Shown here piece after piece: positions 3,733 to 6,341 of a stretch of DNA of 7,520 nucleotides. Within the stretch, counting starts at the first letter, position 1; every line of letters starts with the position of its first letter. The notes under the pieces are model-generated. The model had not been told where the DNA came from and did not search any database. It saw nothing but the letters and a program-made list of their open reading frames with translations. The stretch spans positions 1-7,520 of the forward strand of contig JAHFFU010000042.1 in the NCBI GenBank assembly GCA_023247835.1, read 5' to 3'. The DNA is from Candidatus Bathyarchaeota archaeon. GTDB taxonomy: Archaea; Thermoproteota; Bathyarchaeia; 40CM-2-53-6; FEN-987. The position numbers and the translations under genes were made by a program.

Positions 3733-4761
3733 TTGACGTATCAGATTGGTGGCCGTGAGTCCGGAGTTGTCGTCTTCAAAGAGAACGATGAAGTTAGAGT
3801 GAACGACGATGCCGCTTTAGCACCGGACGCAGTCCGCGGTGAGGTTGGGACGATAGTGAAGATTAACCGGTTTCTGAGCGAGCCAACTCAACTCTCCGAG
3901 GACCTCATCGCGGTCGACCGGTACCAGCAACTTGTCAAGCAGCCCAGGGAGACCGAGATACTCGGCTTCGCCCTCCAGGTTTTCTTTCCCAAGATCGGAG
4001 ACGCGCTACTCGTGGCCTCAAACGAAGTAACTCTTCTCTCAAAATTCCAAGAAAGAATCGACAAACTAGAGGAGAGGCTCATCGCGCACCTCACGGACCC
4101 CCAACAATTCTCCGTTCTTGGAGATGGCGGGCTGGATGTCCCATTCATCAACCAGAATTTTGACGCGCCATTCTTTGGCGACCTAGTCCGATATGTGTTG
4201 AGGCCAAAGCTCGGCAGAAATTCAACGAAGGTTCTCTCACCGGAAGCCTCCGGGCCACCATTGGCGGCGGTATACGCGAGTATGGCCGGCCTCAGCTTCG
4301 TCCGCGCAGTGAAAGTCTATGATATGGCAAGGCCGCAGGTCCCTGGAACCTGGCGCGGGACTGTAGTGGGAGATGTGAAGGTTCCATCCGCCACGAAGAA
4401 AACTGAGCACTATTTCGCAATACCCGAAGGCTCAGTGAGCTCAGAAGACCGCGTGATCATATTCGACGACGTAGGCTTCACAGGAAGGACACGAAACGCC
4501 TGCATACAACTGATAGAGAAAGTTGGAGCTAAGGTTTCTGCGATCGTGAATGTTGTGGAGAAGGCGTACGGTGAGACACGCAACGTAACCGTGAACTCCA
4601 AAGCAATTCTCGGAATAACCGGGTTCGAACCCGAAACCGACAAAACCTGCCGATTGAAAATCAACGAACTGCTCATGAAGCGGCTTGAATCCCCACGCAT
4701 GGTCGGCGGAGTGAAGTACGAGCCGAAGCGATACCTCTCGACCCTTCGCGGCCAGGAATAG
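3733..4761 (+). CDS. Phosphoribosyltransferase-domain protein with long N-terminal extension
   Basis: A 342-residue protein. The C-terminal half (about 165-280) carries a type I phosphoribosyltransferase fold. SPEASGPPLAA (169-179) resembles the E-A-R-G loop of adenine/xanthine phosphoribosyltransferases. It is followed by a hydrophobic strand and lysine (FVRAVKV, 189-195). The PRPP-binding signature VIIFDDVGFTGRT occupies 241-253, with D245 and D246. The first 160 residues are not part of that fold. Residues 14-65 (FKENDEVRVNDDA, GEVGTIVKI) look like a small SH3/KOW-type beta barrel. Residues 100-120 (LLSKFQERIDKLEERL) are probably helical. At nearly twice the length of adenine phosphoribosyltransferase, it may be a regulator or a base-specific enzyme; I do not recognise the exact family. 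TTG at 3733 is the first usable start and fits the TATA spacing. The next gene follows after 21 nt, suggesting one operon. Confidence 0.75.
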   Translation: MTYQIGGRESGVVVFKENDEVRVNDDAALAPDAVRGEVGTIVKINRFLSEPTQLSEDLIAVDRYQQLVKQPRETEILGFALQVFFPKIGDALLVASNEVTLLSKFQERIDKLEERLIAHLTDPQQFSVLGDGGLDVPFINQNFDAPFFGDLVRYVLRPKLGRNSTKVLSPEASGPPLAAVYASMAGLSFVRAVKVYDMARPQVPGTWRGTVVGDVKVPSATKKTEHYFAIPEGSVSSEDRVIIFDDVGFTGRTRNACIQLIEKVGAKVSAIVNVVEKAYGETRNVTVNSKAILGITGFEPETDKTCRLKINELLMKRLESPRMVGGVKYEPKRYLSTLRGQE

Positions 4762-4782: not shown

Positions 4783-5448
4783 TTGCAAATAGAATACTGC
4801 GATTTCCCAGAAGATGCCCTATACGACCTCGACAACAGCGTATGGGTTAGGCTGGTAAACAAGAACCTTGCCGCTCTTGGCATCACCAGCGTCCACGCTG
4901 CCCTGGCTGGACGACTCAGCAAAGTGAACTTCAAGCCTGTCGGCTCCGCGGTCCGGAAAGGGCAGAGCGTCGCAACCATAGAGAGCGGCAAATACTTCGG
5001 GGTCGTCCGAACCCCGCTTTCTGGGATACTAGTTGAAAGCAACGCTGTTCTAGAAAACCAACCGAAGCTCGCGAACGATTCGCCCTATGAAAACGGTTGG
5101 TTCGTGAAGATTGAAACGAGCTTGCTCCCAGAGGAAATGAGCTCCCTACGTGACTTGGCGAGTGCTCGGGAAACGATAAGGTCGCAGATTAGTCAGCTCA
5201 GGGTTAGGTGTTTCAAGGCTTACCCGGATTATGAGATGTGGGAGATAGGCGTCGAATGCGCCGCCGTCCTCGTCAGGTTGAATGAACTTCTCGAACGTTG
5301 CGCATTGAACGAGGTAATTCACGTGGTTTCTGACGACCCTACTGCGGATATCGAGATGGAGAGGTGGTCTGATCAAACAGGTCAGGCCGTTTTGGAATCA
5401 AGAAAGGAAGGAAAGCTGATGCACTTCATCGTAAAAAAGGTGAAGTGA
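4783..5448 (+). CDS. GcvH-like lipoyl domain fused to TusA-like sulfur-carrier domain
   Basis: A 221-residue cytosolic protein with two recognisable modules. Residues about 10-112 follow glycine-cleavage H protein: a SVWVRL/LGITSVHAAL start, then VATIESGK with K70 where the lipoyl lysine sits, and then PLSGILVESNAVLENQPKLA and SPYENGWFVKI. Residues about 148-220 follow TusA/SirA: an EIGVEC strand with C159 at the sulfur-carrying cysteine, a helix (VLVRLNELLE), IHVVSDDPTADIE with the conserved DDP (184-186), a WSDQTGQAVLES helix and strand, and a final LMHFIVKK strand. The TusA CPxP motif is reduced to CAAV. In known systems lipoate-binding GcvH-like proteins and TusA work in sHdr-type sulfur oxidation, so a sulfur-transfer role is inferred over glycine cleavage. 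TTG at 4783 is the only start codon between the upstream stop (4759-4761, same frame) and the domain; AAGGA at 4769-4773 may serve as ribosome site. A rhodanese gene converges from downstream. Confidence 0.8.
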   Translation: MQIEYCDFPEDALYDLDNSVWVRLVNKNLAALGITSVHAALAGRLSKVNFKPVGSAVRKGQSVATIESGKYFGVVRTPLSGILVESNAVLENQPKLANDSPYENGWFVKIETSLLPEEMSSLRDLASARETIRSQISQLRVRCFKAYPDYEMWEIGVECAAVLVRLNELLERCALNEVIHVVSDDPTADIEMERWSDQTGQAVLESRKEGKLMHFIVKKVK

Positions 5449-5453
5449 AAAAA
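5433..5453 (-). terminator. Oligo-T tracts, probable terminator of the rhodanese gene
   Basis: Read on the minus strand, the region just past the rhodanese stop holds two runs of six T (5448-5453 and 5433-5438). The second lies inside the 3' end of the convergent lipoyl-TusA gene. Short T-runs without a required hairpin are the usual intrinsic termination signal in archaea. The matching plus-strand gene has no comparable T-run in the 26-nt gap. Confidence 0.45.
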
Positions 5454-5474
5454 GAGGGGGGATTCCTTAACCAG

Positions 5475-6341
5475 TTAGGGTTTCTCAATCGGGTTGCGGA
5501 CCATGTTGCCCCACTCGGTCCATGATCCGTCATAGTTCTTGACCTTCGGATAGCCGAGGAGATATGTCAGAACGAACCAGCTGAAGGACGACCTCTCGCC
5601 GATTCTGCAGTAGGTGATGACTTCCTTGTCTGCCGTTACGCCTTTGCCTTGGTAGAGTTTGCTTAGTTCTTCGGCGGTTTTGAAGGTCCCGTCTTCTTTC
5701 ACGGCTTGCGACCAGGGTATGTTGAACGCGCCGGGGATGTGGCCTCCTCGCTGCGCATGCTCGTTTGGGTATTCAGGTGGCGCTGTTATCTCGCCGGTGA
5801 ATTCAGCTGGGCTTCGGACATCGACAAGCACCTTGTCTCCGTGGCCGAGCGACTTCTTCACATAATCCAAGTAGGTTCTGATCTCTTCGTTCGGGCCTTT
5901 GGCTTTGTACGAGGCTCTGCTATGGGTGGGTGTGTCCTTCGTTACTTCCCTGTCTTCGGCGAGCCATTTCTTTCGGCCGCCGTTCATCAAGACAACCTTC
6001 TCTACGCCATAGTACTTCAGAATCCAGAAGGCGAAGGCCGCGAACCAATTGTTGAAGTCGCCGTAGAGCACAATGCTCGTATCGCTGCTAACGCCGGATC
6101 GGGAGAGTAGTTCTCCGAGCTGTTGGTTGCCGACTATGTCTCGTGCTAGGGGGTCGTTCATGTCCGTTTTCCAGTCGAAGAGTACTGCGCCGGGTATGTG
6201 GCCGAGGTTGTAGTTGGCGGTAGGGTCGTAATCAACTTCGGCTATGCGTACTGCGCTATCCTTGAGGTGTTGGCTCACCCAGTCAGTTTCGACAAGAACT
6301 TCGGGATGCTTGTATGACAGTTGAGGGCGTGCAGTTGACAA
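5475..6341 (-). CDS. Thiosulfate sulfurtransferase (two-domain rhodanese, CysA2-like)
   Basis: The enzyme transfers sulfane sulfur from thiosulfate, or a related donor, to an acceptor through a cysteine persulfide; cytosolic, with no signal peptide. The 288-residue length fits tandem rhodanese domains. The N-terminal inactive domain spans about 14-130 (GHIPGAVLFDW, VVLYGDFNNWFA with D95 at the cysteine position, MNGGRKKW). The C-terminal active domain spans about 155-285 (VLVDVRSPAEF, GGHIPGAFNIPW, active loop YCRIGERSS with C245, NYDGSWTEWGN). C245 is the only cysteine in the protein. The CRIGERSS loop and the WFVLTYLLG helix resemble mycobacterial CysA2/CysA3. TTG at 6341 is the only start between the in-frame stop at 6348-6350 and the domain. 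The gene converges on the lipoyl-TusA gene with 26 nt between stops, and a palindrome lies in its promoter, suggesting regulated expression. Confidence 0.92.
   Translation of the reverse strand: MSTARPQLSYKHPEVLVETDWVSQHLKDSAVRIAEVDYDPTANYNLGHIPGAVLFDWKTDMNDPLARDIVGNQQLGELLSRSGVSSDTSIVLYGDFNNWFAAFAFWILKYYGVEKVVLMNGGRKKWLAEDREVTKDTPTHSRASYKAKGPNEEIRTYLDYVKKSLGHGDKVLVDVRSPAEFTGEITAPPEYPNEHAQRGGHIPGAFNIPWSQAVKEDGTFKTAEELSKLYQGKGVTADKEVITYCRIGERSSFSWFVLTYLLGYPKVKNYDGSWTEWGNMVRNPIEKP

Follow-up and report, generated by a model that had tools for sequence, protein, structure and literature searches.

An LbpA-like/TusA-like fusion protein of archaea with a variable lipoyl-lysine position and a rhodanese partner

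The fusion gene, its fold and its relatives

The window, i.e. the whole 7,520-nucleotide stretch of DNA analysed here, from contig JAHFFU010000042.1 of a Candidatus Bathyarchaeota archaeon, contains a gene joining an H-protein-like to a TusA-like domain and, convergent to it, a gene for a rhodanese-family protein. The features of the locus are:

4783..5448, + strand: fusion gene, 221 aa, GcvH/LbpA-like plus TusA-like domain (frame, Pfam GCV_H and TusA, fold)
4783..5202, + strand: H-protein fold, residues 1–140, with LbpA-type N-terminal cysteine and a closing long helix (125–139)
4798..4800, + strand: codon of C6; cysteine in every homologue covering the position; aligns with the N-terminal cysteine of free LbpA-type proteins
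4990..4992, + strand: codon AAA of K70, at the lipoyl-lysine position of H-proteins; K, R, T, V or N across the family
5209..5211, + strand: codon of C143; invariant; aligns with the C-terminal cysteine of free LbpA-type proteins
5218..5442, + strand: TusA-like domain, residues 146–220
5257..5259, + strand: codon of C159; invariant; aligns with the TusA-family cysteine; CPxP prolines absent
5449..5474, no strand: 26-nt gap between the convergent fusion and rhodanese genes
5475..6341, − strand: two-domain rhodanese-family sulfurtransferase, 288 aa, loop CRIGERS (Pfam Rhodanese, E 2e-35, in two stretches; linkage)
5607..5609, − strand: codon of the rhodanese catalytic cysteine within CRIGERS (sequence)

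The frame at 4783–5448 (+) starts with TTG, has zero internal stops and encodes 221 residues, among them K70, C159 and D184-D185-P186 exactly as described in an earlier note on this DNA, which had read the gene as a GcvH-like lipoyl domain joined to a TusA-like sulfur carrier. Pfam GCV_H matches residues 17–133 (E 1.4e-27, 96.5 bits, cut-off 22.2), and Pfam TusA matches residues 156–219 with a score barely above its cut-off (E 2.9e-07, 30.7 bits, cut-off 28.6); TIGR00527, the NCBIfam model of GcvH, scores 67.7 bits, below its cut-off of 115.85. Structure prediction, the check suggested at the time, yielded both expected folds: the AF2 model of the window fusion (mean pLDDT 84.3) superposes on the H-protein 1onl with a TM-score by target of 0.93 and on E. 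coli TusA (3lvj_C) with one of 0.81. The arrangement of the two domains in this model is of low confidence, because residues 146–151 have a pLDDT <50 and the pTM is 0.66. In a homologue with arginine at residue 70, both domains and the linker are predicted to be ordered (pLDDT 92.6, pTM 0.85), and its model again matches the H-protein and TusA folds. The hits ranked under H-proteins and TusA relatives in the fold comparison (VIA-align), such as Alba, methyltransferases and others, are regarded as common folds.

A protein search with the fusion as query, which admits only lengths of 0.55–1.75 times that of the query, returned 951 proteins (E ≤ 1e-3), counting that of the window; the residue counts and the tree of 120 proteins discussed below refer to the best 120 of these 951, again with the window included. 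Precomputed matches to GCV_H exist for 120/120 of them and additional ones to TusA for 106, and 119 are 216–248 aa long, P0082 having 192 aa. The same two-domain order, which the earlier note had proposed to look for in homologues, is kept across these best 120 of 951 relatives, and because they share this build the fusion is not an assembly join; an assembly error is thereby ruled out. Pfam matches, predicted folds and conserved relatives agree on a GcvH-like and a TusA-like domain in one chain, which is confirmed as a genuine two-domain gene.

A scan of contigs yielded 22 loci, with both domains covered in 20, hosted by Nitrososphaerales/Nitrososphaeraceae genomes, MAGs labelled Bathyarchaeota and other archaeal MAGs. 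The nearest named genome to the window is that of archaeon RBG_16_50_20 (L001/G001), whose fusion is 64% identical, and a deep member is found in Candidatus Calditenuaceae archaeon HR02. In a sample of 300 genomes of one phylum, 228 gave matches; at least 26 of the listed matches extend through the TusA half, and the remaining listed ones comprise the H-domain half alone. In an H-domain tree built from 20 fusions together with 12 free proteins, the fusions are split from the free ones with a support of 96 (unrooted; 81 after re-rooting), which fits a single origin of the fusions; the branching order of LbpA-type proteins versus GcvH received a support of 31 in the same tree. A profile of the fusions scores LbpA-type proteins with 113–116 bits versus 60–75 bits for canonical GcvHs. 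Several homologues carry the title "glycine cleavage system H protein", which is probably wrong for them and can cause glycine cleavage or the use of lipoate to be assigned falsely.

The rhodanese partner and the gene neighbourhood

A two-domain rhodanese is encoded in 41 of the 46 fusion loci compared, window included. It is adjacent to the fusion in 36, either convergent (22 loci, gap 3–55 nt) or upstream and co-directional (14 loci), and separated from it by one or two frames in the five other linked loci. All 41 linked rhodaneses, including that of the window, contain the loop CRIGER[SA]S. For the five loci without a nearby rhodanese, the protein is encoded elsewhere in four genomes (62–69% identity), and a weak match only was obtained in one. 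In L071, L073 and L074, rhodanese and fusion genes are convergent and lie ca. 4.3–4.4 kb apart with two genes between them.

In the phylum sample, the rhodanese is found in 25 of the 26 genomes for which a full-length fusion is listed, versus 65 of the 274 others (Fisher p 1.2e-13 over 300 genomes, kinship ignored); as the match list stops near 2e-17, weaker fusions may hide among these 274. The fusion is nearly always accompanied by the rhodanese, and the rhodanese also occurs without the fusion; its presence in 65 genomes without a listed full-length fusion implies that it has other roles as well. Three rhodanese matches each were found in G002, G225 and G142, one of those in G225 containing an in-frame TGA.

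The neighbourhood comparison comprised the 46 fusion loci and two LbpA-type loci and gave 44 recurring families, 20 of them annotated (rhodanese included). Besides rhodanese, no family recurs in more than 8 of these loci, so that a conserved operon wider than the rhodanese pair was rejected. The annotated neighbours include PhoU-type proteins, a tRNA endonuclease, an ABC transporter, SIS, STT3, MFS, PAC2, ETF and TiaS, among others. Within the window, Pfam detected neither an hdr-like nor a lipoate-ligase gene. A phosphoribosyltransferase-like gene at 3733–4761 (342 aa) is located 21 nt upstream of the fusion in the same direction; it is outside every neighbour family common to at least four loci, and its first ca. 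150 residues lack a Pfam match. A 253-aa frame at 294–1055 gives KaiC-type matches which are all below cut-off.

Residue 70, the cysteines and the lipoate genes of the hosts

The position of the lipoyl lysine is variable throughout the family. Residue 70 is K in 67, R in 52 and T in 1 of the best 120 of 951 relatives; K in 22, R in 22, V in 1 and N in 1 of the 46 fusion loci (window included in both counts); and R in 18, K in 11, V in 1 and N in 1 of 31 proteins from the loci. Arginine is present in 16/16 proteins retrieved with the Calditenuaceae homologue, the query counted, and in the close relatives P0006 and P0018, which share 85% and 84% identity with the window protein. These sets, and likewise those used for the cysteines, overlap partly. 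At least 18 changes of residue 70 are required on the tree of 120 proteins. The sequence E-S-G-K (67–70), taken as a landmark in the earlier note, is accordingly no family signature, position 69 being Val in 77/120 and position 70 K, R or T. The lysine is kept in 5/5 aligned free LbpA-type proteins (7 fetched) and in 6/6 aligned canonical GcvHs of fusion genomes (7 fetched), and it is described as strictly conserved in all 95 LbpAs of PMC6067878. Judged from the alignments, the lipoyl lysine is dispensable across the fusion family.

The three cysteines behave differently. C143 and C159 are present in 120/120 of the best relatives (of 951) and C6 in all 119 which cover the position; all three occur together in 31/31 proteins from the loci, and C143/C159 in 16/16 and C6 in 15/15 of the Calditenuaceae-homologue set. 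C6 and C143 align with the cysteine pair of five free proteins, labelled LbpA-type for their lysine, this cysteine pair and the ligase and CCG genes close by in two of the genomes. LbpA is described in PMC6067878 as having one N-terminal and one C-terminal cysteine without counterpart in canonical GcvH. C159 aligns with the TusA-family cysteine of 1je3, 1pav and 1dcj in weak pairwise comparisons (E 0.01 to 1.8). The signature motif of the TusA family is CPxP. The corresponding motif is CAAV in the window, and the residue following the cysteine is A, G, S or E across the alignments; C159 may therefore behave unlike a standard TusA cysteine. In the H-domain, none of G43, F72, G73, G105 and W106 varies among the best 120 of 951 relatives, and C6 and W106 are also kept in the distant proteins from loci.

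Lipoate genes were searched as LplA-type proteins and LipA in fusion genomes which come without completeness values and several of which are small, so that gene absences may be gaps. Of the hdr-like and lplA genes which the earlier note had recommended to look for, a ligase-family (LplA-type) domain above cut-off was detected in 18/33 fusion genomes, in which lipoylation is thus possible, and none over cut-off in 15/33; the CCG (HdrB-type) domain was not found in 11/19, which speaks against a place in sHdr-type sulfur oxidation as a rule. LipA was found in 7/20 fusion genomes. GDC-P was found in 3 of the 14 tested and not in the other 11. Lysine at residue 70 is not linked to the presence of a ligase (33 genomes: lysine with ligase 8, lysine without 4, other residues with ligase 10, without 11; Fisher p 0.47), and Lys-70 fusions occur in G004, G008, G267 and G283, where no ligase was detected.

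In seven genomes (G002, G004, G009, G225, G207, G267 and G293) the fusion is the sole GCV_H protein found, and searches detected neither LplA above cut-off nor LipA nor GDC-P/GcvP in them, G004 and G293 giving weak LplA matches below cut-off; their residue 70 is R, K, R, V, R, K and R, respectively. The best evidence for absent lipoate genes comes from G225 and G207, whose fusion contigs measure 2.84 and 1.58 Mb. In the nearest named genome, G001, LipA is accompanied by two proteins of the lipoate-ligase family, and a canonical GcvH is encoded separately from the fusion; on this account the K70 of the window itself may be lipoylated. The Calditenuaceae-type genomes G126 and G227 contain a canonical GcvH of 148 aa, an orphan H-protein without detected ligase, LipA or GDC-P; an absent match is thus no proof of absent lipoylation. 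According to PMC3904984, a survey of 147 archaea, the five Thaumarchaeota included lack the lipoylation pathway, and LipB is reported in Caldiarchaeum. Since, in addition, some sponge-associated and deep-sea Thaumarchaeota are reported to possess glycine cleavage and lipoate genes (PMC7848895, PMC7265257), the absence of lipoate is not general in these groups.

A possible thiol-based sulfur relay

Sequence and prediction establish both folds and their fusion, the three invariant cysteines, the replaceable lysine, the lack of detected lipoate genes in several hosts and the rhodanese linkage, and from these we infer a movement of sulfur, an order of its hand-off and a role of C6 and C143. Because the lipoyl lysine is so often replaced, a sulfur relay based on cysteines appears probable and a lipoate arm does not. 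In its full form, to which we assign a probability of roughly 0.5, our proposal is that the fusion acts as an LbpA-type/TusA-type sulfur carrier which works on its cysteines, does not need lipoate and is loaded by the rhodanese. The cysteine of the CRIGERS loop would pick up a sulfane sulfur, with thiosulfate or a small persulfide as donor, and hand it to C159, where the first TusA helix begins. C143, which closely follows the final helix of the H-domain, and C6, close to the N-terminus, might constitute a second thiol site, which would accept a persulfide, or form a disulfide and thereby release the sulfur, and so replace the dithiol lipoyl arm of true LbpA. The H-protein fold would be retained as docking surface or scaffold, with residue 70 mostly basic. 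The predicted ordered two-domain unit of the Arg-70 homologue would favour a short hand-off between fixed sites over a long swinging arm. With no CCG domain in 11/19 genomes, sHdr is unlikely as general acceptor.

Alternatively, the fusion could be a biosynthetic sulfur carrier for tRNA thiolation, molybdopterin or Fe-S assembly which locally substitutes for free TusA. This would suit the 8/19 fusion genomes in which it is the sole detected TusA-family domain as well as the frequent lack of a CCG match, but the other 11/19 contain at least one further TusA-family match, and the 20 annotated of the 44 recurring neighbour families include no gene for thiolation, molybdopterin or Fe-S assembly. 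Moreover, SufS scores over cut-off in 14/14 fusion genomes tested, so that no missing desulfurase is replaced and a function as stand-in for a cysteine desulfurase is ruled out. We consider such a biosynthetic role unlikely.

Slightly less likely again is a metal or Fe-S centre bound by the three cysteines, which would turn the protein into a redox or sulfide sensor or a scaffold rather than a carrier. The invariance of all three cysteines amid mostly variable positions and the ordered two-domain unit predicted for the Arg-70 homologue would be compatible with it; however, C159 aligns with the TusA-family cysteine, C6 and C143 correspond to cysteines of LbpA, a sulfur-pathway protein, and the partner is a sulfurtransferase-family protein.

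The earlier note had favoured a further scenario, in which K70 is lipoylated and its dithiolane arm takes sulfur from a C159 persulfide within the chain, as an LbpA–TusA variant of lipoate-based sulfur metabolism. The window does possess K70 and the H-protein fold, and its nearest named genome the proteins for lipoylation mentioned above, but K70 is replaced in 53/120 of the best relatives (of 951), even in the close P0006 and P0018, and the lysine does not follow the presence of a ligase and persists where none was detected. From the earlier interpretation, the sulfur-transfer protein remains, as the rhodanese neighbour and the LbpA-type cysteines suggest; the lipoyl arm as the mechanism shared by the family is abandoned in view of the at least 18 changes of residue 70, the uniform arginine of the Calditenuaceae set and several hosts without detected ligase, LipA or other H-protein. 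We regard the lipoylated arm as improbable, more so than a metal centre. That the H-domain is merely a decaying relic and the TusA half alone is used, as the frequent loss of the lysine might indicate, is very improbable given the invariant G43, F72, G73, G105 and W106 and the persistence of C6 and W106 in distant loci.

Extending the proposed cysteine-based relay to its history is more tentative, at somewhat below even odds: it could be an old archaeal one, in which thiols replaced lipoate in an LbpA-type H-domain fused to a TusA carrier and fed by rhodanese, even in Nitrososphaeria-type archaea without detected lipoate genes. If this were true, a working H-protein family without the cofactor would exist, in which the LbpA scaffold acts via its two cysteines alone. 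A relay on thiols only would separate the role of lipoate from that of the two LbpA cysteines and would provide a lead on how sulfane sulfur is moved in Nitrososphaerales and related archaea.

Among the closest known systems is LbpA, the lipoate-binding protein of the sHdr pathway, which PMC6067878 describes as a separate protein encoded in or beside hdr-like clusters. The fusion shares with it the H-protein fold and the cysteine pair, C6 and C143, but differs by its non-conserved lysine, the attached TusA domain and the CCG domains and ligases which are often not found. Strictly speaking, it does not belong to LbpA, since neither a conserved lysine nor a setting among hdr and ligase genes characterises the family; its function may well follow the LbpA principle of protein-bound sulfane sulfur. 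With TusA/SirA proteins it has the fold, the cysteine position and a Pfam match in common, whereas the fused H-domain, the replaced CPxP prolines and the marginal Pfam score set it apart. With canonical GcvH it shares the fold and a match, below cut-off, to the GcvH models, and it differs by the extra domain and cysteines, by the dispensable lysine and by hosts in most of which (11/14) GDC-P was not found. As in the rhd-tusA-dsrE2 sulfur-trafficking clusters described in PMC4175335, a rhodanese gene adjoins that of a TusA-type carrier; here, in contrast, the carrier shares one chain with an H-domain, and no DsrE is found among the 20 annotated of 44 neighbour families. A literature search over titles and abstract openings, with few subscription papers and with preprints outside its range, gave no report of an H-domain/TusA fusion. 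The free LbpA-type genes at L064 and L069 are arranged as tandem pairs, in which one copy has both cysteines and the other neither, the lysine being present in both.
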